Source of the DNA: a virus | DNA: 47,585 nucleotides | IMG/VR virus record: IMGVR_UViG_3300027839_000017 | Coordinates: 1 to 47,585 of that record | Direction: 5' to 3' (one strand) | In this document: in pieces, positions 3,392-41,956 of the stretch | Layout of the letters: each line of letters starts with the position of its first letter | Numbering within the stretch: the stretch's first letter is position 1 | Translations under genes and position numbers: made by a program | Notes under the pieces: generated by a model | Database searches by the model: none | Told to the model about the DNA's origin: nothing | The model's input: the letters and a program-made list of their open reading frames with translations, nothing else

Positions 3392-5224
3392 ATGAATACC
3401 GAAGCAATACCAGTAACTAATGTGTCAACAGAGGAACTAAAGCCTAAGTCTCCAGAGAAGTATGGGGATTTTGACTTTACTAGTGCTAACCTAGGCAAGC
3501 TTATCTCTGATTGGAGCACAGTCCAGGACAAAGTAGAGCGTAACAGGAGAACTATTGACTACACTGTAGACAATAAGGAACTCAGGGCCTCTCAAGACCT
3601 ACAAGAAGATGAACTCCTCACCCCTGTGAGGATGATTAAGAAGAATATCAAGCGGTTAATCCCTTCTTACCTAGAAGCCTTAGTAGGAACGCAGGATGTA
3701 GTGTCACTTAAGAACTCCATAGACCCTACTATCTCTCCTGATGCTCTTAATTCTGAGATTACCAAACTGCTGAGGACTAACAGCTGGCTAGAGAACCACA
3801 TACTCAACATCCAAGGCTTCCTTTCCCACGGTATCAGCTACATAGTAACGGAGTTTAACGTAGATACTCCTTCTAGCATAGACAATATCAGATATAAGGT
3901 AGAGGATGTCCTCATTCCCTCTGACTTAGAGGATCTACAGTCAGCTGAGTTGATAGCATTGAGGTTAACTGTTACTCCTACTAAGTTAAGGGAGTTGGTT
4001 ACTAAGTTTGAGTTCAATAAGTCTGTAGCTGATAAGGCTATCAAGGATAAGATAGTAGATCAGGAGTCCCTTAGACCTAAGGAGAATGCTTTCCATATCT
4101 ACCACTGTTACTACAAGCAAGATGGGGTAGTGTATCATGCTTGGATCTCTAATACTAGGTCCAGCACATGGCTAAAGTCTCCTAAACCTCTATATCTAGG
4201 TAGGAGTGACAAGGAAGAGGAGCCTGAGTTAGATGTAGTAGGTCAACCTATCTTAGATCAAGAAGGTAATCCAGTAATTAAGGTTAACCTTATCCCTGCA
4301 CAAGAGTTTGAGTATCCTATAGACGTGTATTACCGTTCATTCCCTGAGAGTGGCAGGGTGCTAGAAGCTAGTGGTGTTGCAGAGGATAGTGGTCCTATCC
4401 AAGAGGCTGCTACTATCCTTTTATCTACCCACATCAACGCAACTGTTAGAAGTGGCAACCTATACGCTAGTGTTAACGCACTATCAGAAGAGGATTCAGG
4501 GGATGCACCGGCGCAACTAGATGTAAAGCTTAAAGCTGGTGAGATCCTTAACCGTCCTGTCACCTCTCACAGTGTGCAGAGGCCAGACAACACCTCTATC
4601 GAAGCTCTCTCTTATCTTTCCCAGGAGAATGCTGATGAGCAGTCACAGTTCTCTTTCCTCTTAGGTGTAGGTAGAGGAGATAGGAAAACCGCTACTGAGA
4701 CTAACGCAGCTCAGCAACAAACCTCTCAAGCATCTAGCCAAGATCTCCTAGTCTACCACTTAGCCTACCACTCTACAGTCACTAGAGCTGTGAGGATCAT
4801 GTTGAACAGGTGGAGGAATGGTAAGTTAGACATTAAGGCTCCAGAAGAGTTGAAGGATAGCAGGTGGCACATAGAGCCTGTAGCTCAGAAGGATGCTCTG
4901 ATGAAGCAGCAGAGGATTCAACAGCGGAGGATGGATTGGCCAGTAGTATCTGTTACTCCTATGGCTGATCTATTCTTTGTTGATTGGATAAGAGAAGCTT
5001 ATCCAGCGCATTCTGATAAGTATGTGCAAGCCTTGAACGATGGAGGAGGAGTTAATGGTCTTACTAAGGAGAACCAACAGCTTAAGGGTCAACTAGGCTC
5101 TGCGGCTAATATCTTAGAATCTTTACTCTCTGAGGGAATGCTAGAGGAACTAGATCCTAAAGAGAGGGAAACACTAAACCAGCAAATACAACAGATGAAA
5201 GGAGTAGCAGCAGATGAAGGCTAA
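3392..5224 (+). CDS. Portal protein
   Basis: 610 residues, acidic and mostly helical, forming the dodecameric ring through which DNA enters and leaves the capsid. Evidence is position directly after terL, length typical of podovirus portals, and portal-like passages: an N-terminal helical segment (about 30-70), the YLEAL/VSLKNS region near 95-110, and a C-terminal Gln-rich helix (about 420-450, NAAQQQTSQASSQD) with long coiled segments to the end. Its end overlaps the next gene by 11 bases. Confidence 0.85.
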   Translation: MNTEAIPVTNVSTEELKPKSPEKYGDFDFTSANLGKLISDWSTVQDKVERNRRTIDYTVDNKELRASQDLQEDELLTPVRMIKKNIKRLIPSYLEALVGTQDVVSLKNSIDPTISPDALNSEITKLLRTNSWLENHILNIQGFLSHGISYIVTEFNVDTPSSIDNIRYKVEDVLIPSDLEDLQSAELIALRLTVTPTKLRELVTKFEFNKSVADKAIKDKIVDQESLRPKENAFHIYHCYYKQDGVVYHAWISNTRSSTWLKSPKPLYLGRSDKEEEPELDVVGQPILDQEGNPVIKVNLIPAQEFEYPIDVYYRSFPESGRVLEASGVAEDSGPIQEAATILLSTHINATVRSGNLYASVNALSEEDSGDAPAQLDVKLKAGEILNRPVTSHSVQRPDNTSIEALSYLSQENADEQSQFSFLLGVGRGDRKTATETNAAQQQTSQASSQDLLVYHLAYHSTVTRAVRIMLNRWRNGKLDIKAPEELKDSRWHIEPVAQKDALMKQQRIQQRRMDWPVVSVTPMADLFFVDWIREAYPAHSDKYVQALNDGGGVNGLTKENQQLKGQLGSAANILESLLSEGMLEELDPKERETLNQQIQQMKGVAADEG

Positions 5225-5495
5225 TGTAATGAGTAGGCACGTAAGTGGTGAGGTTAAAGAGGGATTGATTAAACAGAAAGAAGAGACCTTTGAGAAGGAT
5301 AGGATCAAGCAAGCCCAAGATATAGAGAAGAGAGCATGGTTAGCTCATCCTTTATCTAGCCATCTCTTGAAACAGATCAAAGGGTTGAGGGAGATCAATA
5401 GGGATAAGCTAGTTGATCTAGATATAGAGGATCTTCCTATAGCTAAAGCTAGGGAACAGGTTTACAAGACAGTAATTAAAATGATTGAGGAATAG
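5214..5495 (+). CDS. Hypothetical protein between portal and scaffold
   Basis: 93 residues, strongly charged and helical, rich in Lys, Glu and Leu. Its start lies inside the end of the portal gene (11-base overlap) and it ends 2 bases before the next ATG, so it is co-translated with both. Not recognised; its place suggests a minor head-assembly protein. Confidence 0.65.
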   Translation: MKANVMSRHVSGEVKEGLIKQKEETFEKDRIKQAQDIEKRAWLAHPLSSHLLKQIKGLREINRDKLVDLDIEDLPIAKAREQVYKTVIKMIEE

Positions 5496-5497
5496 AT

Positions 5498-6667
5498 ATG
5501 ACACCAGAAGAACAGGCAGCACTAGACGCAGCAGTTGAACAAGAGAAGACCTTGATGAATGATGATGAATCATTAGAGGATTTCTTCGGAGGAGAATTAG
5601 AACTAGAAGAAAAGGAAGAAGATGGTTCAGCCAATAAGAAGAGTGATGATGAAGCAGAGGTTATCGAGGGTGAAGATGAATCAGGTGGAGAGGAAGGAGG
5701 AGATAAAGGAGAAGAAGGAGATTCATCTGAAGATAGTTCCAGCGAAGAAGAGAAAGATGTCTTAGCTGATCTAGGTAAAGAACCAGAGGAGAAAGAGGAG
5801 AAGGTAGAGCCAGGTAAAGAGAAGAGAGATTATTCTGAGTTCACAGTAGAGGAACAAGCAGTCCTCAAAAGAATGCCTAACGAAGCATTTAACTACACCT
5901 CTGCTAAACTTAGAGAGCACAAGCTACTAATAGCAGAAACAGCTACTCTCAAAGATACTGCTCAGCACATCTACTCTAACCCCGAAGCATACCGTATCCT
6001 TCCTGAGTCTAAGGAGATCCTAGCTAACCTTACAGATCAAGAAGATCTCAAGGGCTTCTATCAAGAACAACTCCAGCTTGCCTCACAAGGTAAAGCTTGG
6101 ACTGGGCTGAAAGAAGGAGCAGATGGTAAGCTAGAAAGATTACCTATTGCTGCTACTGTAGCTAAGAACGAGGATGGGGATGAAGTAAATGTAGCTGATC
6201 CTCAACACGTAGCTTGGATTAACCAGCAGATGGGTAAGGTTGACTCAGACAAGCAATCCCTGATCTCTCGTTATGCAGCTATCAAGAAAGAGCATGAAGA
6301 GAAGTCTAAGGATATACCTAGCTTCCTAACTGCTGCTGAGGATAAGGTCTTCCCTGATATGAAGACTCTCACTAAACCTCAACAGAAGTTTGTGGATGAA
6401 GTGGCTAAGGCTTTCCCTCTCTCACTCAGGGTAGATCCTATGATGAAATTCGTAGGTAAAGGTCTTATCCATGTCCAAGCTTTAAAGACTCAGCTAGCTG
6501 CTAAGGACGCAGAGATCGCTAAGCTCAAGGGGATTAAGGTAGAGAAGGATCTCGCCGGACCAGGAACTAAGGCTGTAACCTCAGGTGCAGGAAGTAAAGA
6601 GGCTGATGGTGACACTAAAGAGTTCAAGGACAATGACTTCGAGGGGATGGGAATGCCTAGCCTTTAG
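5498..6667 (+). CDS. Putative capsid scaffolding protein
   Basis: 389 residues. The first 115 are extremely acidic (long Glu/Asp/Ser stretches), followed by helical, coiled-coil-prone sequence and a C-terminal helix (about 340-355, LKTQLAAKDAEIAKLKGIK). Acidic, helical, low-complexity proteins between portal and capsid genes are typical scaffolds that shape the procapsid and then leave. Start chosen for GAGGAATAGATATG. Function is inferred from composition and order. Confidence 0.72.
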   Translation: MTPEEQAALDAAVEQEKTLMNDDESLEDFFGGELELEEKEEDGSANKKSDDEAEVIEGEDESGGEEGGDKGEEGDSSEDSSSEEEKDVLADLGKEPEEKEEKVEPGKEKRDYSEFTVEEQAVLKRMPNEAFNYTSAKLREHKLLIAETATLKDTAQHIYSNPEAYRILPESKEILANLTDQEDLKGFYQEQLQLASQGKAWTGLKEGADGKLERLPIAATVAKNEDGDEVNVADPQHVAWINQQMGKVDSDKQSLISRYAAIKKEHEEKSKDIPSFLTAAEDKVFPDMKTLTKPQQKFVDEVAKAFPLSLRVDPMMKFVGKGLIHVQALKTQLAAKDAEIAKLKGIKVEKDLAGPGTKAVTSGAGSKEADGDTKEFKDNDFEGMGMPSL

Positions 6668-8823: not shown

Positions 8824-10551
8824 ATGCCACGTGGAGATGTCGGACTTAAAAAGCGTGTTGTTGCGCTAGAGAGTGTAATGGAGAACCTGGTTCCCCGAGT
8901 AGATACACTGTTTCAACAAAACGAGAACCTACTTACTAATCCCTGGTCACCTTTGGGTAGTTGGGTAGCTTCTACTAATTCACCCCCATTAGCTAATGCT
9001 GATGCTGCGGTTGCTGGGGCTAGTTATCTTGCAGCTGATGGTGGAACAGTAGATTTCGGAGCTGGTGGAGGAGGAATTGTATTCCTTGGAGGAGATCTAG
9101 TATCTAAGAACGCTGCTGGTATCTGGTTCAAGTCTGCTGGGATAGGTAGTGTTATTGCAGGCTTCGCTACATTAGCTCTTGCTAGAGCAGAGTTGGATGT
9201 AATGACTATTGGGGACGTAAACGATCGCCAGCTTTCGAAGGCTCCAAGCAATGGGCTTTATTTTGACGGGGTTGATGACTCAGCGGCAACAGCAACAGGG
9301 CTTATTGCTTCTTCCAAGTTAAGCTTTAACACCAGTGGGCTTACAGATTTACCTTTTTCCGGCAGCGCAATAATCAGGGTGGACGATGTGGCGGGTCAGT
9401 TCCAAATCGCTGGAAAAGAAAGCGGGCTAGCTCAATACGAATGGTCATGGAGAGTTAATGCCAGCGGCTTTATACTTCTCGTGTTCCGCGATGTGAGCGC
9501 GGCGGTTTACGTCATTGGAACGGCCTCAACGGGCGCACTTGTGGAGGGGCAATTCGTTCATGTGGCCTTCACTTATGATGGAGTTGGTGGAGCGTCGGCG
9601 GCGAGCAACATAAAAATCTACGTGAACGGAAGTTTGCAAACGTCGTCGGGAACGTACAACGCGAGCTATGAAGCGATGGAAGACGGCACTGCTGGGGTGA
9701 CATTTGGAAAATATGTCACTGGTGCTCTATTTGGCGAGGGAGTCATTGAATCGTGCATCATATTCAACCGCGAACTTACAGCCGCCGAGATCCTTCGCCT
9801 TTCGAACAACAACGTGCCAGAGGTTGCGGATCAGTATGCCGGCGCGGTAGATCTCACTAGCGGCACGCTCGTAATAGGCAGTCGATACAGGCTAACCAAC
9901 TGGATTACAGCCGATGATTTTACGGACGTAGGAGCTGCCAGCAACGCTGATGGAGAGGAGTTTGTCGCGAGCGGCGACACCCCGGCAACTTGGTCAAATA
10001 GTAGTGTCGTAACTCGGATCGGGGCCGTCCTATCCCTAAGCCCTGGAAACATCGAGGTAGACGGTGATTGGATCGATGCTTCAAGTAACCGCTTGAATGG
10101 AACTAACACTGGAGCCTCACCTCTTCTTACTCACCAACGTCTAGATCTTGCAGATGCTAATGCAGCAGCAGGTGAACAGGTTCTATCTGTTGGAACTGGC
10201 TTCTCAGTTAAGAAGAGTGGCTATGTTAATGCTACTCGTATCACTATTCCTACCTCTGAGCTAACTGTAGCCACAGCAGCGGTTACTGCTACTGGATCTA
10301 GACACACTATTGATACAGAAGGTGATGCTTCTGCTGATGATCTAGCTACGATTAACGGAGGAGAGGATGGAATGATCCTTGTTCTAACTGCTGAGAATGA
10401 TGCTAGGACTGTAACGGTTCAAGACTCTGTAGGTAATATTGATTGTGCTGGTGATATGGTTCTTGATGCTGTTGAAGATAGTATCGAACTCATGTATCTA
10501 TCCTCTATCAGTAAGTGGGTAGAGAAGAGTCGCAGTGCTAACGCAACCTAA
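8824..10551 (+). CDS. Fibre/appendage protein with LamG-like lectin domain
   Basis: 575 residues. Domains: N-terminal coiled coil (about 5-35), linker to about 130, a concanavalin/LamG-like jelly roll (about 140-335; strands such as WSWRVNASGFILLVF and FVHVAFTYDGVGG, then IKIYVNGSLQ and IFNRELTAAEILRLSNN), a second beta region, and a C-terminal fibre module (about 480-575) ending in ISKWVEKS. LamG folds bind glycans, so a receptor- or surface-binding role is likely. Positions about 9225-10085 have visibly higher GC and different codon choice than both flanks, a sign of a transferred module. Confidence 0.75.
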   Translation: MPRGDVGLKKRVVALESVMENLVPRVDTLFQQNENLLTNPWSPLGSWVASTNSPPLANADAAVAGASYLAADGGTVDFGAGGGGIVFLGGDLVSKNAAGIWFKSAGIGSVIAGFATLALARAELDVMTIGDVNDRQLSKAPSNGLYFDGVDDSAATATGLIASSKLSFNTSGLTDLPFSGSAIIRVDDVAGQFQIAGKESGLAQYEWSWRVNASGFILLVFRDVSAAVYVIGTASTGALVEGQFVHVAFTYDGVGGASAASNIKIYVNGSLQTSSGTYNASYEAMEDGTAGVTFGKYVTGALFGEGVIESCIIFNRELTAAEILRLSNNNVPEVADQYAGAVDLTSGTLVIGSRYRLTNWITADDFTDVGAASNADGEEFVASGDTPATWSNSSVVTRIGAVLSLSPGNIEVDGDWIDASSNRLNGTNTGASPLLTHQRLDLADANAAAGEQVLSVGTGFSVKKSGYVNATRITIPTSELTVATAAVTATGSRHTIDTEGDASADDLATINGGEDGMILVLTAENDARTVTVQDSVGNIDCAGDMVLDAVEDSIELMYLSSISKWVEKSRSANAT

Positions 10552-11374: not shown

Positions 11375-11863
11375 ATGAAGTTAATCTTAAATCATATAGG
11401 ACTTGTCTTTGCATTAACAATCTTCCTGTTCGTAGCAGGGTTTGGATACCACCACAGTGCTGATGAGAAGAGGGCCAAGGATGTAGTAGAAGGTCTGACT
11501 CTAGCTTTTGATTCTACAGGGACAGCAGTTATAGTTGCGGATAAGAGAGGCAAGATTAGATTCTGGACTTCAGGTGCAGAGGATCTATTCGGTTACACTA
11601 CTGAAGAAGCTCTAGGGGAGAATATCAAGATACTAATGCCAAAGTCGCTACAACCCGCGCATGCCATAGCTTTTAAAGAGGCTTTCCAATCTGGTGATAG
11701 TAGTGTGCAGGAGATAAACTGTGTCGCCGTTCTCAAAGATGGGAATCCTAAACTGATTAAGGTAAGCATGTGGAGGACTGAACAGTATGCTTACGCTATA
11801 GTCAGTGATCCTAGTAAGGTGAAGCACTTTACATCACCAGAGTTTATGAGTATCCTGCGGTAG
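11375..11863 (+). CDS. Membrane-anchored PAS-domain protein
   Basis: 162 residues. An N-terminal hydrophobic segment (about 7-24) is followed by one PAS domain (about 45-152): TGTAVIVADKRGKIRFWTSG, then AEDLFGYTTEEALGENI, then LMPKSLQPAHA, the standard PAS core. PAS domains sense redox state, light or small ligands or mediate dimerisation; no kinase, cyclase or output domain is attached. It starts 2 bases after the holin-like gene. An anchored sensor in this position might tune lysis timing or interfere with a host PAS signalling protein; both ideas are inference. The haem/flavin ligand cannot be assigned. Confidence 0.85.
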   Translation: MKLILNHIGLVFALTIFLFVAGFGYHHSADEKRAKDVVEGLTLAFDSTGTAVIVADKRGKIRFWTSGAEDLFGYTTEEALGENIKILMPKSLQPAHAIAFKEAFQSGDSSVQEINCVAVLKDGNPKLIKVSMWRTEQYAYAIVSDPSKVKHFTSPEFMSILR

Positions 11864-13223: not shown

Positions 13224-14321
13224 ATGAGATCAGGCAAAACATCTCCTTCGTTGAAAAGGAAGTCTATTCAGATAACAGGGTTTATGAATAGCTATACCAG
13301 TTACGGTATACTAACCCAGAAGTTCGCACAACACCTACTACATGGCGAGGTATCAGCAGTGGTTAGACCATTGAATTTCCAAGAGCCTTGGGGTGATGCA
13401 ACAAGGGTAGATGACCAGGTTAAGTGTATGATGATTCACAAGGATCTACATAACCTATGCACACATGAGATAGTATTCCATACTCCTAACTGCTGTCACG
13501 TAGATCTACATAAGAGTGGGTTTGCTAAGAAGAACAGGACTTTGTTTACCCTTTGGGAGAGTTCGTTAGTCAAACCTCAGTATATCCAAGACATCCACGA
13601 ACATTATGGAAGAGTTATTGTTCCCAATAGTTTTTGTAAACAGGTTCTGGAAGATAGTGGTATTGATATCCCAGTATACATTTGTCCTCTTGGTGCTGAC
13701 AATGGAACTTTTTCTCCCTCTGAGACTAAGTTTCCTAGTGACGAAGTTACTACGTTTCTTTGTGCGGGTAGGATGGCACATGGGGGCGTTAGGAAAGGGA
13801 TCAAACAGGTCATAGAGGTGTTCATGGATACCTTTGCTAATAAGCACAATGTAGCTCTGAGGGTTAAGCTTCATCCAGACTGTCCAGAGTTTCCGGCGTT
13901 TGACTGTAGAGTGAATATCACTCGCTCCTTTATGGACAAACCAGCACTCGCCGAGTGGTATAGAAGTGGTAACGCTTTCGTATCTATCTCTAGCGAAGGA
14001 TGGGGATGGCATCAACAAGAAGCGCAACTGTGTGGCTTACCTCTAGTTGGTGTTAACTGGGGTGGATTGACTAACTTCTTCCATGGGTTCGAGTGTGACT
14101 ATAAGCTAGAGAAAGCTAAGGATGCTGAGATCTATGAGAAGACTGGTTATCAACCTGTAGTGAATGAGAAGGATCTTAGGGAGAAGATGATGTTCATCTC
14201 AGAGAAGCCAGCTTACGCTCATAGGGTAGGACAAGGCGGAGTCCATAAGGCTATCAAGTATACGTGGGAAAACTCAAGAGAAGAGTTCTTAACCCTGTTG
14301 AGAAAGTTGAGGATAGCATGA
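13224..14321 (+). CDS. Glycosyltransferase family 4-like (GT-B)
   Basis: 365 residues, within the normal range for GT-B enzymes. N-terminal Rossmann half begins KSIQITGFMNSYTSYGILT; the C-terminal donor-binding half has LCAGRMAHGGVRKGIKQVI and the signature SSEGWGWHQQEAQLCGLPLV, with the two Glu seven residues apart expected in GT4. It likely transfers a sugar from a nucleotide-sugar to a virion protein or surface glycan. First of a run of three glycosyltransferases and a sulfotransferase; linked by ATGA to the next gene. Confidence 0.88.
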   Translation: MRSGKTSPSLKRKSIQITGFMNSYTSYGILTQKFAQHLLHGEVSAVVRPLNFQEPWGDATRVDDQVKCMMIHKDLHNLCTHEIVFHTPNCCHVDLHKSGFAKKNRTLFTLWESSLVKPQYIQDIHEHYGRVIVPNSFCKQVLEDSGIDIPVYICPLGADNGTFSPSETKFPSDEVTTFLCAGRMAHGGVRKGIKQVIEVFMDTFANKHNVALRVKLHPDCPEFPAFDCRVNITRSFMDKPALAEWYRSGNAFVSISSEGWGWHQQEAQLCGLPLVGVNWGGLTNFFHGFECDYKLEKAKDAEIYEKTGYQPVVNEKDLREKMMFISEKPAYAHRVGQGGVHKAIKYTWENSREEFLTLLRKLRIA

Positions 14322-15052
14322 GAGACTTTCCTATTACATTCCTTTTTCTGATTAGTAGAGAAGAGGAGAAGCCTGTTGTAAAGAAGAATCTACAGATGCT
14401 AGAGAGTATGCCTTTTAGGCATAGTGTTGCCTTAGTGCATGATGATACATTCCTTCCTTGCATAGGTGATGATTTTGCTAATGTGTTTACCATCTCACAT
14501 AGAGTTAATGGAGATTTTGCTGGACATAAGAACTATGTATTAGGCTCAGAAGCTCCTTGGCTTCCCTACATCTACTTCTGTGATGGGGATGAAGTGATAC
14601 CTGATATGTTTCCTTCGTTGTTCAGGATCATGGATGCTAACCACTCTGTTAATGATAACGAAGCTATAGCTTTTCCTCGGATGAATAGAGTTGATTGGGA
14701 TAGCGAGGAGAGTGCTTACCAGGATATGGATTTTGTATGGGACCAGTTTAAGTTGATGGAGAAAGATCACAAAGAGAACCTTGGTAGCAATGACAGGGAA
14801 TTTACTGTAGGTGTTAATGCTAAGGGAGATATAAGAGCAGATGGTCTCCTATATCCTGATTACCAAAACCGACTCTTTAACAAACAGTCTTTGATAGGTT
14901 TCGAAGGTAAGATACATGAGCAACCTATCACTAAGAACCACTACCGCTATGCTGTAGATCTAGGTGATATCATACATGAGAAGACCTTAGATGAGAGGAT
15001 TATATCTAACACTCTATACCATAACATCACACATGGGGAGGTTGCTGTATGA
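14318..15052 (+). CDS. Glycosyltransferase family 2-like (GT-A)
   Basis: 244 residues from the chosen ATG at 14318, which gives a 4-base ATGA overlap with the previous stop; an ATG 54 bases earlier would force a long overlap and is less likely. Motifs: IYFCDGDEVIP, where DGD is the metal-binding DxD, and RLFNKQSLIGFEGKIHEQPI, typical of the core-oligosaccharide (WaaE/SunS-like) GT2 group. It probably adds a hexose or heptose-type sugar. The exact donor cannot be deduced. Confidence 0.82.
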   Translation: MRDFPITFLFLISREEEKPVVKKNLQMLESMPFRHSVALVHDDTFLPCIGDDFANVFTISHRVNGDFAGHKNYVLGSEAPWLPYIYFCDGDEVIPDMFPSLFRIMDANHSVNDNEAIAFPRMNRVDWDSEESAYQDMDFVWDQFKLMEKDHKENLGSNDREFTVGVNAKGDIRADGLLYPDYQNRLFNKQSLIGFEGKIHEQPITKNHYRYAVDLGDIIHEKTLDERIISNTLYHNITHGEVAV

Positions 15053-15774
15053 GTATTCCTTGTGTAGGTTTCCTAACCTTTAACAGACCTGACTTAAGTA
15101 TTAGGTTGTTGAATTCTTTCGATGCTGAGATAGATCATCTAGTTATAATTAACAATGGGCCTTACAGTCATGAGACTTGGAAAGAGGGAGCTAAAGATAA
15201 GGCTAAGAAAGTCTCTGTTCATACTCAGTATAATACAGGTGTAGCTTGTGGATGGAATATGATTATCAAGGATGCGCCGGGAGCAGCTTATTGGATGATA
15301 CTGAATGATGACCTGATCTTAGCTCCTGGTGATATGGTTAAGCTAGGTAAAGAAGCCCTGGAAAGTGGTGAAGATGTTGCTATCTGTGCACCTAATCCAA
15401 TAGGTTTGGCTATGATGGCTGTTAAACCTGTAGCTATTAATGAGGTTGGACTATTCGATGAGAACTTCTACCCTGCTTACTTAGAGGATTGTGATTACAT
15501 GTGGAGAACAAGAGTAGCTAATCTTAAGTTCCGTTACTTCTATGGATGTGATTCAGTCCATGAGTGGAGTATGGCTAACAAGTCAGATAGAAGGGTAGCA
15601 GAGTTTAATAGCAAGGTTAGAACGCAAGCAACTCTTCCATATTATATAGCTAAGTGGGGTGGAGATGGAGGAGAAGAGAAGTATTCAATCCCTTTTAATG
15701 GGGAAAAGAATAACCAATTCCTTCCTTTTATGAGGGCTAGGATTCTAGATATAGCTAAGGAGGTAGGGCTATGA
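15049..15774 (+). CDS. Glycosyltransferase family 2-like (rhamnosyltransferase type)
   Basis: 241 residues. GT-A pattern in order: FLTFNRPDLSIRLLNSF, VIINNG, NTGVACGWN, then WMILNDDLILAPG with the catalytic metal-binding DD, and GLFDENFYPAYLEDCDYMWR, the acceptor-side motif of rhamnosyl-like GT2. Overlaps both neighbours by ATGA, so it is translated with the other glycan genes. Confidence 0.88.
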   Translation: MSIPCVGFLTFNRPDLSIRLLNSFDAEIDHLVIINNGPYSHETWKEGAKDKAKKVSVHTQYNTGVACGWNMIIKDAPGAAYWMILNDDLILAPGDMVKLGKEALESGEDVAICAPNPIGLAMMAVKPVAINEVGLFDENFYPAYLEDCDYMWRTRVANLKFRYFYGCDSVHEWSMANKSDRRVAEFNSKVRTQATLPYYIAKWGGDGGEEKYSIPFNGEKNNQFLPFMRARILDIAKEVGL

Positions 15775-15842
15775 AAGAATATGTTCTAACTTTTGTGAAG
15801 AACCTAGCTGAAGGTGAGGCTTATTATAATATATTGAAATGA
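15771..15842 (+). CDS. 23-residue mini-gene between glycan genes
   Basis: Encodes MKEYVLTFVKNLAEGEAYYN plus ILK. It starts in an ATGA overlap with the preceding glycosyltransferase (15771-15774) and stops in an ATGA overlap with the sulfotransferase (15839-15842), with AAGGAGG about 9 bases before the start. The double overlap and strong ribosome site argue it is translated, either as a peptide or merely to couple the two genes. Confidence 0.55.
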   Translation: MKEYVLTFVKNLAEGEAYYNILK

Positions 15843-16447
15843 CTAAGATATTGATACATGTTCCCAAGTCAGGAGGTATGACTATTCTTAAGGCAGGGGA
15901 AGAAGGAGGAATTAAAGTTCTGCATAAGGCAGGACTAAGAGGGTTCTTAGAATCAACAGAAGAAGAGATTGAATCTTGCGATCTTTTTGTTTCTCACTCT
16001 CCTTATTCTGTTTATCTGAAAAGGGGCATAAAAAATCTTGAGTTCTTTTCATTAGTGAGATGTCCTTACACTAGGATCATCTCTAACTATTACCAGGATA
16101 AGTTAGCTTCTGTAGCTATTGATAGTCTATATCAATATCTTAACTATTACCAAGGAAGAGGTTTATCAGCGATGGTTAATAGTTTCTGCTCTGATCTATC
16201 TAAACCTTTGCCTGAGCAGCTAGATTCTGCTAAAGAGAATGTAAAAAGGTTTAAGCTATTTATGTTCTCTGAGATGAATAATGAATGGGATAAGATTACA
16301 GATTACATAGGGACTAAAAAGATGCCTTTAATTTTTTGTAATAGTAGAACAGGGGATTCAATAATAAGTAGAGGGACACTAGATTACATGGATGAGCTTC
16401 TTAGGTATGAGATGGAGCTTTACAATTACATCAAGACTTTAAAATAG
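15839..16447 (+). CDS. Sulfotransferase
   Basis: 202 residues. The 5'-phosphosulfate loop is seen at 7-16 (HVPKSGGMTI, compare HxPKTGGTS), and the 3'-phosphate site at 72-85 (LVRCPYTRIISNYY; R74 and S82). It therefore should use host PAPS to sulfate an acceptor, and the genes before it make a sugar acceptor the natural guess. Smaller than many carbohydrate sulfotransferases but complete from loop to C-terminus. Phage sulfotransferases are uncommon. Confidence 0.85.
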   Translation: MTKILIHVPKSGGMTILKAGEEGGIKVLHKAGLRGFLESTEEEIESCDLFVSHSPYSVYLKRGIKNLEFFSLVRCPYTRIISNYYQDKLASVAIDSLYQYLNYYQGRGLSAMVNSFCSDLSKPLPEQLDSAKENVKRFKLFMFSEMNNEWDKITDYIGTKKMPLIFCNSRTGDSIISRGTLDYMDELLRYEMELYNYIKTLK

Positions 16448-17694: not shown

Positions 17695-18645
17695 ATGCCA
17701 TTAATTGATATACTAACTCCTTTAGCTGTGCAGACAGGCTTGAGGTTAGACAATGCTAATAGCAAACAGAAAGCTATAGACATTGTTAATGAAGGAGCAA
17801 GAAGGTTATATGAATCTACTGACATGCAGTTCTGTCTGTATGAGCAAGTATTTGATTTTGATCTGACTAACGAGCTAGTAACCTTACCTTATTACGTAGA
17901 TATAGTAAGAGGGATTAGATGCCAAAGCAGTAATATGCCCTTAACTCTGATAGATAAAAGACCTAGGTATCAGTATGGTAAGTATTACCAGGATGCTTTG
18001 GACATAAGAGTGAAGCAAAAGGTAGCTTTGAACAGGGATCTGGAGAATGAATCTCCGTTTACCTTTACCATATCTGCGCAGAATGACGAAGCTTTTACTG
18101 TGACAGTAGTAGGATCTACGAGTAGTAGAGATAGAGTAGAGGAAACCCTCTCCTTCTCAGCTACTGATGTGACTAAGACTACGGTTAACTCCTTCCTTAA
18201 CCATCCTCCGTTGCGCGGGATCTATAAGAACAAGAGGACTAAATACAACGTAGTCGTCACCGATGCAAGTGCTAATGAGATCGCCGAGATAGCCTCGCAT
18301 AGGAAGGAAAGCAAGTATCTTATGGTCCAGATTAGAGATCCTTCGCTAACCGGCTCAGGTAGTAAGTGCTATGAGATCCTATACAAATACGTATATGAGC
18401 CCTTTGACACAGATTACAGTGACTTCGTATGCCCTGGTTTTGATGACGCTATCCTACACATGGCACTCAGTGTATTCTATATGGCCAGTAAAGATCAAGA
18501 GGAAATGGTTAAAGCTGTAGCTGAAGAAGGTGTAGCTAAGAAGATTGCTAGGAATATCAATAAGGATAGTGAGAGGTCTAATGAGCATAGACTCCAGACT
18601 AAACCTAGTGGTTTGATGACTGCGCACAATAGGATTACACGATGA
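17695..18645 (+). CDS. Putative head-tail adaptor (T7 gp11-like tail tubular A)
   Basis: 316 residues. N-terminal helices (QKAIDIVNEGARRLYESTD) and a C-terminal helix pair (PGFDDAILHMALSVFYMASK) match the layout of podovirus adaptor or tail-tubular A proteins; a beta-rich insertion fills 110-200. It directly precedes the nozzle gene, as in T7, and its stop overlaps that start by ATGA. Assignment depends largely on order. Confidence 0.62.
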   Translation: MPLIDILTPLAVQTGLRLDNANSKQKAIDIVNEGARRLYESTDMQFCLYEQVFDFDLTNELVTLPYYVDIVRGIRCQSSNMPLTLIDKRPRYQYGKYYQDALDIRVKQKVALNRDLENESPFTFTISAQNDEAFTVTVVGSTSSRDRVEETLSFSATDVTKTTVNSFLNHPPLRGIYKNKRTKYNVVVTDASANEIAEIASHRKESKYLMVQIRDPSLTGSGSKCYEILYKYVYEPFDTDYSDFVCPGFDDAILHMALSVFYMASKDQEEMVKAVAEEGVAKKIARNINKDSERSNEHRLQTKPSGLMTAHNRITR

Positions 18646-21107
18646 GTGATACCCTACAGATAGATCAGTTTAATGGAGGGATGTCCTATAAGGAAGATAG
18701 GGCTAAGATAGGTAAGGGCCAGTATTACCTGATGGTTAATGGTAGGAATAGGTTTAACTCTATCAAGCCCATCAAGGGACCAGAGGATCTGACTAGTAAG
18801 TTGCCTATAGACGGAGCGATTAACTTGCAGGGAGTGTATAGTTTCTCTGACTTCGTGGTAGTATTCGCTGGAGGTAAAGGGTATTATAAGAACTATAATG
18901 ATACCGCAGGGTTTAACAAGATTCCCGCGCTCACCCTATCTGCTACGGCGGTTAAGATATACGTAGCTGCGGTGCCTTCTTCTACTGTTAACAAGGACAG
19001 GAAAGCCTTCTCCTCTACAGACTCTACCTTAGGTTCAACCGAAGGGGAGTTTGACGAAGGAACTGAGTCTGGCTTTATCGTATGTGATGGAGTAACTCAG
19101 CCCTGGTTTGTATTCGCTGATGGTTCAGCTAGGCAGACTAAGGCTTACAGTGCATGGAACAACTCACTAGGTGAGAGAGAGTATGTGCCTATTGGTATCA
19201 AACCTCAGTTCCACGATGGTATCCTCTACATGGTAGCTAAGGATAGTAAGGGTAAGTATACTAAGATTTATCGCAGTGTTACTGGTAGACCTACTGACTT
19301 CATGGTTAACATCGATATCAACGGTGATAAGCTACCTGAAGAGAGTAAGGGTGGAGCTGATAGCGTTAGCCATAGTATCTCCTTGGACGAGATCACTAGC
19401 TTCTATCCTTCTTCGCTAGAGAATAGAGGGTTGATAGTATCTACGTTGAAAGGGACTTGGTTTGTTATTCCAGATTATGGAAGGACTATCTTTGGAGAGC
19501 CCTCGTTTACTAGCCAAGGTCCTATCTTTAACACCGGCGCAGTAAGTGAGAATTCTCTAGTCGAGAACAATAGTGATACGGTGTTGATAGATCAGTCAGG
19601 GTTAAGAAGCTTTAATGATATCGCCGTCAGTAAGAATGAGGGAAGGAACAAGAGCTTCTCAGAGTCGATACAGAGGATCTTCGGGGAAGAGTTACAGGAT
19701 GAGAATAGTGTGGCAGTGGAATACGAGGACTACTTACTCTTCTCAGTTCAGACCTCCTACGGACCAGTGGTCATAGTGTTCGATACTATCACCCAATCCT
19801 TTGCTAGTGTGGATAACTACCCTAACATTGGACAGATCAAACAGTTTGCTATACTGAGGATCAACGGGATACAGAGGTTGTTCGGGATAACTACTAGCGA
19901 TAAGTTTGTAGAGCTATTCGTTGGAGAGGTAGTTACGTGTATGTTTTACCAGGCTGATTACGGAGGAAGTAATGAGAAGGGTGAGAGGTCTATGATGAGG
20001 GTAGCTAAGACTACCATAGGCTGCAGCAAGATCAGGACTAGTGGTAAGATACAGTTCACTTACTTCTACGATGGAGTAAGGGGTGAGACTCAGGAGGTTA
20101 ACGTAACTCAGAGCGAACCTGAGAATGTGACTAAGCCATTACCTTATCTACCTAATATCATACCAGGTGGGATAACCAGGACAGCAGCCTTTAACACTCC
20201 TCATGCTAGGAGAACAGCAGTGATGATCGAGACTAACGTCGACCTAGCTATAGATTGGATTCAGCATGAAGTGGAGAGTGTATCTGTAGAGTATGATAGC
20301 CCTAGTGACTATGATGATATAAAGCAATTAGGAGGAGATGTGTATCCTTACGACCTAGTATTTTTTGGTAACAACTTTGAGACCACCGGAGACAAGGTAA
20401 CTCTGATCGAGGCTGCTAAGGCAATCTTGCCTGATCTATACCTTGGTGGCGGAAACCAGGTTGCAGGCTCCGGTGGTTCTCTTACCCTTACACCGTTAAG
20501 TGACTACCTAGATTATGAGAATACCTTGAAGAAGGTGTATTGTTGTCTAGGTGCTACGGAATACTCAGAGGACTATGGAAGGGATCTGATAGAGTATATG
20601 TTAGGTCATCACTACAATAGGTATATGGAGTATGTGCATAAGAACATGCAGATCTTCTTGTTGAGTAGTGGGTATGACCAAGCAGGTGTGCTGAAAGAAC
20701 CTCATGGTGTGGATGTGAATAGCGAACAGTATAGCTGGTTCAAGGCTACTATCGCTAAGTCTACTGCGCGGTTCAAGATAGTGATGATGCATCACGCTCC
20801 TTATACCTCGTTCAATCCTGTAGCTAAAACGGATCTGAGATGGAACTTTGCAGAGCTAGGTGTAGATCTAGTCCTATCCTCTCGCACCGCTGCTTATGAA
20901 AGGCTACAGGTAGATAACATACCTTACGTTAATGTCTATAGTGGTAATTCAAGGGAGACAGCAATAGATAACTTGCAGGCTGAGAGTAAGGTAATTCACT
21001 TCACGACTAGCACCATACTTAAGCTACACGCTGATGAGTTTAATCTGTATTGTAAGGCAATCGATACATCGGAGAATGTAATAGACCAGTTCATTATTAA
21101 CAAGTAA
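18642..21107 (+). CDS. Tail nozzle protein fused to degenerate metallophosphatase domain
   Basis: 821 residues, long for a nozzle. The first about 560 residues begin IDQFNGGMSYKEDRAKIGKG and match tail tubular B/nozzle proteins, which form the tube tip. Residues about 568-821 resemble a purple-acid-phosphatase/calcineurin fold: VYPYDLVFFGNN (576-578, where GDN is expected), GATEY (637-641, for GNHDY), MMHHAPYTS (H717, H718 kept), and a VDLVLSSRTAAYERL segment (YER 752-754 kept, GHxH lost). Several metal ligands are replaced, so it is probably inactive and may bind a receptor. Confidence 0.82.
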   Translation: MSDTLQIDQFNGGMSYKEDRAKIGKGQYYLMVNGRNRFNSIKPIKGPEDLTSKLPIDGAINLQGVYSFSDFVVVFAGGKGYYKNYNDTAGFNKIPALTLSATAVKIYVAAVPSSTVNKDRKAFSSTDSTLGSTEGEFDEGTESGFIVCDGVTQPWFVFADGSARQTKAYSAWNNSLGEREYVPIGIKPQFHDGILYMVAKDSKGKYTKIYRSVTGRPTDFMVNIDINGDKLPEESKGGADSVSHSISLDEITSFYPSSLENRGLIVSTLKGTWFVIPDYGRTIFGEPSFTSQGPIFNTGAVSENSLVENNSDTVLIDQSGLRSFNDIAVSKNEGRNKSFSESIQRIFGEELQDENSVAVEYEDYLLFSVQTSYGPVVIVFDTITQSFASVDNYPNIGQIKQFAILRINGIQRLFGITTSDKFVELFVGEVVTCMFYQADYGGSNEKGERSMMRVAKTTIGCSKIRTSGKIQFTYFYDGVRGETQEVNVTQSEPENVTKPLPYLPNIIPGGITRTAAFNTPHARRTAVMIETNVDLAIDWIQHEVESVSVEYDSPSDYDDIKQLGGDVYPYDLVFFGNNFETTGDKVTLIEAAKAILPDLYLGGGNQVAGSGGSLTLTPLSDYLDYENTLKKVYCCLGATEYSEDYGRDLIEYMLGHHYNRYMEYVHKNMQIFLLSSGYDQAGVLKEPHGVDVNSEQYSWFKATIAKSTARFKIVMMHHAPYTSFNPVAKTDLRWNFAELGVDLVLSSRTAAYERLQVDNIPYVNVYSGNSRETAIDNLQAESKVIHFTTSTILKLHADEFNLYCKAIDTSENVIDQFIINK

Positions 21108-30661: not shown

Positions 30662-30810
30662 AAATTCATTATCTTATTTGAATATCCAGTAATTAATACA
30701 ATGGACCAGAAGGTTAATATTCCTTCTATCCTACCGAAGACTGCTATGCTAATACTTAATGCTACTGCTAGTATCACCAAGCTTAGCCATTTCTCAGACA
30801 GTGATTCCAT
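30658..30810 (-). CDS. 50-residue two-helix membrane protein
   Basis: Begins MESLSEKWLSLVILAVALSI and contains two hydrophobic stretches (about 9-25 and 30-41) joined by GRIEG. It starts 17 bases inside the end of the papain-like protease gene and ends with an ATGA overlap. Topology resembles a tiny holin or an anchor for the protease; both are guesses. Confidence 0.68.
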   Translation of the reverse strand: MESLSEKWLSLVILAVALSISIAVFGRIEGILTFWSIVLITGYSNKIMNL

Positions 30811-31519
30811 AACAGCTTTTCAATGCAAGGTTAGCATAGGTTTTGATATCCATATATCCATAGCCTCTTCTACCCCACCTAGTTCCCCAGCTATTCTTGA
30901 TGATGTAACCTTGGGGAGTATAGCCGCAGATGATGATAGCATGTCCCGGACTCATAGGAGGTTGGATCTTATAGTTAGCTAACCTCTTAGTATTAAAGGA
31001 CATGAACTGTGGATCAGGAGTGAGGTGCGTGACTAAAGGACCATGTTCATGTAGCCATGCCTTGATCTTCTTCTCTGATCTACCTACGTTGTAATAGGAT
31101 TTGATCTTATTCTTAGCTGCTTCCTTGATATAATCTGCTTGGGAAAGGTTACAGAACCTACCCATAGGCATCTGCTTCCTGGTAAGACAGCCATGCTTCT
31201 TAGCTACAGAGAGCGCGTCCTTGATATAGGTTCCGGCGGTAGTCAGTGCTGTGGTAGGCAATACCTTATAAGCATCTGATTCCTTACTACACATCCACAG
31301 GAAGTTAGGTGATAGATCCTCAAGGGTATGCCATTCCATTACACCCGTAACTGCAAAGCCTACACATGCACCAGATTGGTATTGGTTCTTCATCTTCCAA
31401 CTCCTCCTCCTAAGGTCTAGGTGAGTGGGTGCACTGTTATCTGTTAGATCGTAACGGTAATCCGTTGAAGTGTTACGGTCTTTGAATGCTGTTAGTAGTG
31501 GTTTCATTTCTTGTTTCAT
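30794..31519 (-). CDS. Papain-family (C1) cysteine protease
   Basis: 241 residues. The full catalytic set is visible: oxyanion Gln46 and nucleophile Cys52 in QYQSGACVGFA, His193 in GHAIIICGY, and Asn209 in KNSWGTRWGRRGYGYMD. The N-terminal part before the catalytic domain is only about 30 residues (starting near APTHLDLR), so the usual inhibitory propeptide and signal peptide are missing and it should act in the cytoplasm without activation. It sits in the replication operon beside the polymerase. Targets may be host proteins; unknown. Confidence 0.9.
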   Translation of the reverse strand: MKQEMKPLLTAFKDRNTSTDYRYDLTDNSAPTHLDLRRRSWKMKNQYQSGACVGFAVTGVMEWHTLEDLSPNFLWMCSKESDAYKVLPTTALTTAGTYIKDALSVAKKHGCLTRKQMPMGRFCNLSQADYIKEAAKNKIKSYYNVGRSEKKIKAWLHEHGPLVTHLTPDPQFMSFNTKRLANYKIQPPMSPGHAIIICGYTPQGYIIKNSWGTRWGRRGYGYMDIKTYANLALKSCYGITV

Positions 31520-40220: not shown

Positions 40221-40296
40221 AAGTAGATCGGATGGCTTTAACGGTTAGGTCTAGGAGGAACAGAAAAGATAGGGTGAGTGGGATTAGATAGATCAT
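40210..40296 (-). CDS. 28-residue membrane peptide
   Basis: Begins MIYLIPLTLSFLFLLDLTVK: one hydrophobic helix and a basic tail (RSTYER). Start forms an ATGA overlap with the glycosyltransferase stop (40293-40296) and its end overlaps the next gene by 11 bases, so it is translated in series with them. Confidence 0.62.
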   Translation of the reverse strand: MIYLIPLTLSFLFLLDLTVKAIRSTYER

Positions 40297-41039
40297 ACCT
40301 CTTTCCCTTCTCTCTCACTCAAGAGATCTCTATGGTATCTATCCATTCTCTCTTGCTCTGCTACTGACTTCCGATGTTGAATGACAGGGAAGAAGTCAAC
40401 AGTCATCCCATTCTCCTCTGATCTCTTAGCTATAGGCATCTCATGTGTAACACCTATCACCTCATCCGTCAACGCTATACTCATCAGCCTTGGCTGGATG
40501 TCAGGCCACATCCACCGTTGTAGATAGTGCTCTCTCATACCCCTAGGTAACACGGCACTTCCCTCATATACATTATTGCCTCCACCTGTTTCCTTTAAAC
40601 TCTTCAACACTTCCAGATCTTTAGGGCCTACACCCTTGATAGTATTGTTCCTTGGCATACCTATACAGAAGGGAGAGGAGAAATCTATGTGAGTAGGGAG
40701 CGAGTTGGATAGGTGAGAGAGGGAGTCTAAGGTTAGATACTCATCTCCATCTAAGAAGAAGATCCATCCTTCTTTCTTCTCCTGTTGCAACTGACGAAGG
40801 AGTTCAGTCTTCCTCTGCCCGAAGTTATTCTTGAAGGCATAACTGATAGGGTTATACCTATCATCATCTAACTCACTCAGCAACGCAGGATGTTGCTCAG
40901 AGTTACTATCTACCACCGGAACATAGGTTATATTCTCTTGCCCCCTATAGTAGTGACGAGCATTAACTAACTCATCCTTTCTTGAGAAGAACTGGTATAG
41001 GTAGAGGTGTGGTATGGGGGTGCTGGTTGTTGGATTCAT
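40293..41039 (-). CDS. Glycosyltransferase family 2-like, replication arm
   Basis: 248 residues. WIFFLDGDEYLTLDS carries the GT-A DxD, and PRLMSIALTDEVIGVTHEMP is a typical core-oligosaccharide GT2 tail, similar in layout to the enzyme at 14318-15052. It is separated from the three other glycosyltransferases, directly behind sigma-54 promoter P2, and heads the replication operon. Timing suggests it modifies something different from the virion glycan genes, perhaps host surface or a DNA-linked sugar. Confidence 0.75.
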   Translation of the reverse strand: MNPTTSTPIPHLYLYQFFSRKDELVNARHYYRGQENITYVPVVDSNSEQHPALLSELDDDRYNPISYAFKNNFGQRKTELLRQLQQEKKEGWIFFLDGDEYLTLDSLSHLSNSLPTHIDFSSPFCIGMPRNNTIKGVGPKDLEVLKSLKETGGGNNVYEGSAVLPRGMREHYLQRWMWPDIQPRLMSIALTDEVIGVTHEMPIAKRSEENGMTVDFFPVIQHRKSVAEQERMDRYHRDLLSEREGKEV

Positions 41040-41122: not shown

Positions 41123-41956
41123 TTATTGTGTAGATGGTGGTAAGATCTTATTAACCATAAGTTGGAACACGTAGTTAATGATAGCCCTACAGTTTCCCTG
41201 GTCTAGGAAAATCTTACCTTCCTTTGCTTTGATAATGAATGTGTTAGTATCATACTCACTAGGTGATTGGTTGAAGATCTTAGAGTAATAGTAGATGAAC
41301 ATCATCTCCAAGTCATCTATCCTCTTAGCTATAGGCGGGATGGAGAAGGTTAGCTTAGCTATCCTGAAGTATAGATCACTACGGAACTCCTCCTTATCCA
41401 TCATCTCAGGTAGGTTCTTATTCGTTGCGGCTACGACACGACACCTAAAGCCATAGTCTTCTTGTCCTCCGATAGCTCTAGCTCGTTGAGTCTCTAAGGC
41501 TCTGAGAAGCTTAGCCTGCATGGATAGAGGGAGTTCGCCGATCTCATCTAGGAACAGAGTCCCATGATTAGCCTGTTGAAACAAACCCTCCCTATCCTTA
41601 ACACACCCCGTGTAACTACCTTTCTTAGCTCCGAAGAACTCAGCCTCTATCAACTCAGATGGTATAGCTCCGCAGTTAACTACTACGAACTTACCTTCCC
41701 TGCCATTGTGTAGGCGGTAAGCTAAGGCTTCCTTACCTACCCCTGAAGGACCACTAATCAGACATGAGATATCTAACTTACTCACTACCTCTATCTGATT
41801 CAAGGTATGAATGAGCTTATCATCCTGAGTATAGAAGGTTCCTTTCCATCTACTCCTTAGAGAAGACTCGAGGTTGAAGATGTCTAGCTTCTTATCAGGA
41901 AGTATATCCTCTTGGAATTCATCTAAGATAGTCTGCTTGGTATGTTGGGCTTGCAT
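41123..41956 (-). CDS. Sigma-54 activator ATPase (AAA+ domain only)
   Basis: 277 residues. Walker A GPSGVGKE (K75), sigma-54 contact loop GSYTGC (113-118, replacing GAFTGA; key Thr and Gly kept), Walker B LFLDEIGELP (D137, E138), sensor AATN, arginine residues FRSDLYFR (R192, R198), and lid GNCRA (254-258). These are the marks of bacterial enhancer-binding proteins, which use ATP to open sigma-54 promoters. No receiver or other sensory domain precedes it and no HTH follows: it ends about 20 residues after the lid. Enhancer-less activators such as FlgR and CtcC are known. The phage promoters P1-P4 are its likely targets. Confidence 0.93.
   Translation of the reverse strand: MQAQHTKQTILDEFQEDILPDKKLDIFNLESSLRSRWKGTFYTQDDKLIHTLNQIEVVSKLDISCLISGPSGVGKEALAYRLHNGREGKFVVVNCGAIPSELIEAEFFGAKKGSYTGCVKDREGLFQQANHGTLFLDEIGELPLSMQAKLLRALETQRARAIGGQEDYGFRCRVVAATNKNLPEMMDKEEFRSDLYFRIAKLTFSIPPIAKRIDDLEMMFIYYYSKIFNQSPSEYDTNTFIIKAKEGKIFLDQGNCRAIINYVFQLMVNKILPPSTQ

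Follow-up and report, generated by a model that had tools for sequence, protein, structure and literature searches.

A sulfotransferase gene chained to glycosyltransferase genes in an uncultured tailed phage: a candidate cassette for a sulfated virion glycan

To our knowledge, glycosylation of phage virions has been demonstrated in a few systems only, and the sulfotransferases of phages usually figure as auxiliary metabolic genes (AMGs) with no substrate assigned. In the mycobacteriophages Che8 and Rita, capsid and tail subunits carry glycans made by phage-encoded glycosyltransferases (GTs) (Freeman et al. 2023, as cited in PMC11256854 and PMC12619734). In these two articles, the passages on the Che8 and Rita glycans make no mention of sulfate; in the related phage Maravista, the GT genes are located towards the genome's 3' end. 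Here, we describe a cluster of five overlapping genes in the 47,585-base IMG/VR virus record IMGVR_UViG_3300027839_000017, which stems from an uncultured tailed phage and which was analysed over its full length (the window hereafter). Like Che8 and Rita, the window phage encodes its own GTs, and the last gene of the cluster is predicted to encode a sulfotransferase using 3'-phosphoadenosine 5'-phosphosulfate (PAPS).

The Pontimonas phage phiPsal1 and the Synechococcus phage S-CBS4 share with the window the same GT2 family and GT-Bs of PHROG 2170, and their GT genes lie in the virion gene block. The annotated order is capsid, GT, methyltransferase, GT2, neck in phiPsal1 and portal, hypothetical, GT, galactosyl transferase, methyltransferase in S-CBS4. 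In contrast to both, the window carries a putative sulfotransferase in place of the S-adenosylmethionine-dependent methyltransferase, together with an additional probable GT-A enzyme and a 23-codon open reading frame (ORF) that appears to be translationally coupled; its GT-B is highly diverged and is not encoded directly by the putative capsid gene. The Pelagibacter phage Mosig and the Synechococcus phage ACG-2014f resemble the window in another respect, a Sulfotransfer_2 enzyme within a run of overlapping GT genes. Unlike the window phage, they are large T4-like phages with clusters outside the head module, and the GTs belong to GT8, GT6, GT11 and GT25. Phage sulfotransferases and virion glycosylation are thus already known, while the sequences suggest that their pairing in a capsid-module type GT-B/GT2 cassette is unusual. 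The literature, which we covered incompletely, yielded no description of a phage virion glycan bearing sulfate.

The identification of the sulfotransferase is well supported by a profile, by invariant motifs and by the modelled fold, and not by Pfam, where the protein stayed below threshold (PF03567, E 0.06, 13.9 bits against a cut-off of 22). A single-sequence phmmer search against the PDB returned noise only (guanine deaminase). The first lead came from the 'putative sulfotransfer' protein of Mosig, which itself matches PF03567 (E 4e-12) and is about 26% identical to the window protein. A narrow two-peptide pattern derived from the alignment of these two proteins retrieved 27 viral loci, and in all 23 of the records searched from them the PF03567 cut-off was passed. 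A profile built from 18 viral relatives without the window sequence then found the window protein at E 1.9e-19, the next ORF scoring 0.63. In the 19-sequence alignment of these relatives and the window protein, H7, P9, K10, G12 and G13 of the 5'-phosphosulfate-binding loop HVPKSGG (HxPKxGG type) are invariant, as are R74, P76 and S82 of the 3'-phosphate-binding motif RCPYTRIIS (RxPxxRxxS type), in which R79 is conserved in more than 90% of the sequences. The lysine of the former loop is the residue that we take to bind the 5'-phosphosulfate. H53 is a candidate catalytic base, as judged by an HxPY pattern that L004 and L019 also have.

An alignment-based AlphaFold2 (AF2) model of the protein reached moderate confidence (pLDDT 70.8, pTM 0.66; pLDDT 36 for single-sequence AF2). 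When the model was compared with known structures by VIA-align, rows 1-22 were all sulfotransferases (Z 10.6-8.7), followed by P-loop folds, among them unrelated kinases, at about 8. The best matches were glycan sulfotransferases and glycopeptide enzymes, namely 3-OST-1 (Z 10.6), NDST1, Teg12 and 2-OST. Heparan sulfate 3-O-sulfotransferase and NDST share the PAPS-binding motifs and match over 188-191 residues (Z 10.6-10.5), whereas the window protein is smaller and only 11-15% identical in those rows. Because Foldseek by itself also placed P-loop kinases high, the fold was never used alone as evidence. The original prediction, which couples glycan-building enzymes with a PAPS-type sulfotransferase, is well supported. 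Within PHROGs, all 18 viral relatives, that is 18 of the 19 aligned members, matched phrog_3347 ('Galactose-3-O-sulfotransferase'); the window protein had no PHROG match and did not reach phrog_3347 even at E 1. As it aligns with the members of this family and keeps their invariant residues, it is, judged by sequence, a divergent relative or sister of phrog_3347 outside its membership.

The GTs encoded upstream could be assigned to different degrees (Table 1). The GT-B was assigned by PF13692 (E 2.9e-6) and by phrog_2170 (E 9.7e-15); when it is aligned with the GT-Bs of phiPsal1 and S-CBS4, R190, K191, E258 and E266 are invariant. Because PHROG 2170 is common to both, we class the window GT-B with the capsid-linked family, as a divergent member. 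For the GT2, matches were obtained to PF00535 (E 6.4e-5) and to phrog_29879 ('galactosyl transferase', E 8.9e-24), and a profile built from its phiPsal1 and S-CBS4 counterparts, with the window sequence left out, recovered it at E 1.8e-25. GT-B and GT2 are thus co-encoded in the window as phrog_2170 and phrog_29879. The middle GT gave no match in Pfam; since it bears a DGDE motif of the DxD type, falls into phrog_37334 (unknown function, E 3.4e-5) and shows weak similarity to SunS (E 0.073), it is a probable GT-A enzyme. It is also distantly similar (blastp E 3e-4) to an unlinked fourth GT, which is possibly accessory to the cluster.

Table 1 Features of the glycan cluster and a related gene in the window
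Feature	Position	Strand	Basis and remarks
GT-B glycosyltransferase (GT4-like, Glyco_trans_1_4)	13224-14321	+	PF13692, phrog_2170, EX7E motif EGWGWHQQE
GT-A-type glycosyltransferase (probable)	14318-15052	+	DGDE motif, phrog_37334; ATG start overlaps GT-B stop
GT2 glycosyltransferase	15049-15774	+	PF00535, phrog_29879; NDD and EDCD motifs
23-codon ORF	15771-15842	+	ATGA overlap at each end; proposed translational-coupling leader for the sulfotransferase
Sulfotransferase (predicted), 202 residues (Sulfotransfer_2 / 3-OST-like fold)	15839-16447	+	profile, motifs, fold
Fourth GT-A-like glycosyltransferase, unlinked	40293-41039	-	minus-strand replication block; PF13704 E 3.7e-4, below cut-off

All five ORFs that had been proposed on the plus strand at 13224-16447 are present as described, and the claimed chaining holds at every junction, as all four are 4-nt ATGA overlaps. 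Among the listed genes, a run of four such junctions is unique to the glycan cluster; single 4-nt overlaps occur elsewhere in the window (TerS/TerL, 17695/18642, PolA/163 aa ORF and AAA/124 aa ORF). The start of the GT-A gene is the ATG at 14318, which is preceded by AGGA 5 nt upstream, the GTG at 14264 of the ORF list representing an upstream extension. Anti-Shine-Dalgarno pairing energies, computed for 45 window genes, set the two last ORFs of the cluster apart: the 23-codon ORF pairs more strongly than any other gene (-13.4 kcal/mol, AAGGAGG), whereas the start of the sulfotransferase, with one of the weakest pairings (+1.8), lacks a Shine-Dalgarno sequence. Reinitiation is possible because the stop of the 23-codon ORF overlaps the sulfotransferase start. 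Most likely, therefore, the 23-codon ORF loads ribosomes for the sulfotransferase by termination-reinitiation, as far as can be inferred from the sequence. Possibly, it instead encodes a functional peptide; it has no family match in Pfam or PHROGs.

A GT-B/GT2 pair of this kind recurs in other phages. We identified 80 viral loci with relatives of the window GT2, 61 of which also encode a GT-B. With profiles, a capsid protein was recognized in 41 of these 61, always encoded within 800 bp upstream of the GT-B; like those for protease and neck, the capsid profiles drew on members of the loci themselves and on the annotated genes of phiPsal1. In the capsid-positive loci, the genes follow one another as protease, capsid, GT-B, GT2, neck, and for a sample of the loci PHROGs returned named families of major head, protease, head-tail adaptor, portal and tape-measure proteins. 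A sulfotransferase is encoded in none of the 80 loci, and a PF03567 search of whole records found none in 32 GT2-locus records, while the same search was positive in 23 of 23 controls. The less usual feature of the window, as indicated by these comparisons, is thus the pairing of a sulfotransferase with a GT-B/GT2 cassette of the capsid-module type. Across the loci L034-L113, the order protease, capsid, GT-B, (methyltransferase), GT2, neck is widespread in uncultured phages and suggests common capsid glycosylation. Its recurrence, with a methyltransferase in some loci, raises the prospect that phages may commonly glycosylate their capsids with a terminal modification that can be exchanged.

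Sulfotransferases as such were already known from phages. The original prediction called a sulfated glycan on the virion or the host surface rare for phages, which is overstated given the 27 viral contigs retrieved by one narrow pattern, a named PHROG, several phage proteins with a sulfotransferase annotation in BFVD, and a 2021 paper that counts viral sulfotransferases among the AMGs reported earlier (PMC8290583). In the isolated phages Mosig and ACG-2014f, the enzymes are encoded inside runs of GTs, and the viral protein at 4564-6660 of locus L016 joins a GlcNAc-transferase domain (PF11397, E 5.6e-48) and a sulfotransferase domain in one polypeptide. A glycan substrate is favoured for these reasons. 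Among 91 neighbours of the viral sulfotransferases, including the L016 fusion, the commonest families are Methyltransf_24, GT2 and GT8, and several neighbours are sugar-nucleotide enzymes. A GT2 or GT4 partner as a general rule for sulfotransferase phages was rejected, as GT2 (PF00535) occurs in 5 of 23 sulfotransferase records and GT4 (PF13692) in 2 of 23, the neighbours often being other sugar enzymes or methyltransferases.

Taken together, we put the chances at about even that the cluster is a virion-glycosylation cassette with a sulfate-capping enzyme. GT-B, GT-A and GT2 would together assemble a short glycan, attached to a virion protein expressed from the same late transcript, and the sulfotransferase, its translation coupled to the 23-codon ORF with its near-perfect ribosome-binding site, would move sulfate from host-supplied PAPS onto a hydroxyl of this glycan. 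The particle would thereby gain a negatively charged sugar coat, by which adsorption, aggregation or recognition could change. Sugar hydroxyls are commonly capped by methyl as well as by sulfate groups, so that the gain of a sulfotransferase at the place taken by a methyltransferase in relatives may represent a swap of the terminal decoration. The chaining of GTs and a sulfotransferase in the terminase strand block would suggest a concrete substrate for such an enzyme, the phage's own particle. That a tailed phage both builds and sulfates its own virion glycan with a self-encoded enzyme set, in which the sulfotransferase is tuned by a 23-codon leader, is a more tentative proposal, to which we give somewhat less than an even chance.

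Several observations weigh against a virion cassette. The prediction that the cluster lies between structural genes is only partly borne out, in that TerL (phrog_2, E 1.8e-16) is encoded in the same plus-strand block (1310-28128); TerL alone was identified there by homology, and the other structural genes lack such support, the putative portal, capsid and tail proteins being unmatched in PHROGs, Pfam and the phages searched. The GT-B gene begins about 5 kb past the putative capsid gene instead of adjoining it, and the window GT-B is missed by a profile made solely from its phiPsal1 and S-CBS4 counterparts (E 0.13). The counts of 61 and 41 refer to contigs including close relatives and not to independent events, and the sulfotransferase-GT clusters of Mosig and ACG-2014f are surrounded by nucleotide-metabolism or photosynthesis genes and not by the capsid module. 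The phage also has no recognizable adenosine 5'-phosphosulfate kinase, so that PAPS supply by the host is assumed. According to the main rival, the enzymes remodel and sulfate a glycan of the host surface (lipopolysaccharide, capsule or exopolysaccharide), for example blocking superinfection or the re-adsorption of progeny to debris. The missing homology confirmation of the window capsid and tail genes leaves room for this explanation, and T4-like marine phages carry sulfotransferases with GTs and sugar-nucleotide enzymes outside structural modules, genes that cyanophage papers interpret as host-surface modification (PMC9602691); the sugar-nucleotide enzymes among the sulfotransferase neighbours noted above point the same way. 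However, many viral contigs have GT2 relatives next to capsid genes; beside the cluster we recognized no flippase, polymerase or acyltransferase, and among the ORFs examined no integrase. A virion target is favoured because the related GT-B/GT2 loci adjoin capsid genes in other phages, and we regard host-surface modification as unlikely, if worth serious consideration.

The sulfotransferase might also be a passenger that acts on another acceptor such as tyrosine, a lipid or a small molecule, while the GTs still glycosylate the virion. Its gene has a G+C content of 34.8%, the lowest of 41 genes longer than 300 bp (mean 42.7, standard deviation 2.5), which suggests a separate and recent acquisition; moreover, the absence of a sulfotransferase from the 80 GT2-related loci indicates that the cassette works without one, and sulfotransferase folds serve many acceptors. 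On the other hand, glycan sulfotransferases (3-OST, NDST) and glycopeptide enzymes are the top structural matches, the gene appears translationally chained to the GT genes, and phage homologues recur in a sugar-gene context, which renders a passenger role rather improbable. Very improbable, finally, is that phage DNA is the target of the GTs, as it is in T4-like or hypermodified phages, and that the sulfotransferase extends this modification. Phage GTs with a role in DNA hypermodification are known (Pyle et al. 2024, as cited in PMC12619734), and the fourth GT is encoded in the replication block. Yet, no thymidylate synthase/hydroxymethylase (PF00303) was matched in the 47.6-kb record, which is perhaps incomplete, control genomes being positive, nor was an N6/N4 methylase homologue found in the phage; the cluster is located in the terminase strand block, and relatives pair such enzymes with capsid genes.

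With regard to its wider kinship, the window phage looks like a deeply divergent lineage by sequence comparison; neither among 50,697 phage records nor in PHROGs or Pfam could relatives be detected for its putative portal, capsid and large tail protein. Searches of viral contigs with single proteins (sulfotransferase, capsid, terminase and GT2) yielded no relative, and neither did a capsid search of genome contigs. The DNA polymerase and terminase matches were distant and scattered over several hosts, so that no host was inferred, and helicase matches, which cover at most one third of the protein, mean little.

Further genes of the window gave domain matches. In the plus-strand block, a putative virion protein (8824-10551, +) contains a Concanavalin/LamG-type lectin domain (PF13385, E 1.1e-12) and is possibly a glycan-binding decoration. 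Following a small membrane-like ORF, a PAS-domain protein with a hydrophobic N-terminus is encoded at 11375-11863 (+; PF00989, E 5.7e-10). The C-terminal part (20004-21104, +) of the putative tail ORF 18642-21107 is similar to calcineurin-like metallophosphatases, with a score just under the cut-off (PF00149, E 9.4e-4, 20.1 bits against 21.5). On the minus strand, we noted a papain-family (C1) cysteine protease (30794-31519; PF00112, E 2.4e-18), which seems unusual in a tailed phage, and a protein with a sigma-54 interaction (NtrC-like) AAA+ domain (41123-41956; PF00158, E 6.7e-56), which may redirect host sigma-54 transcription.

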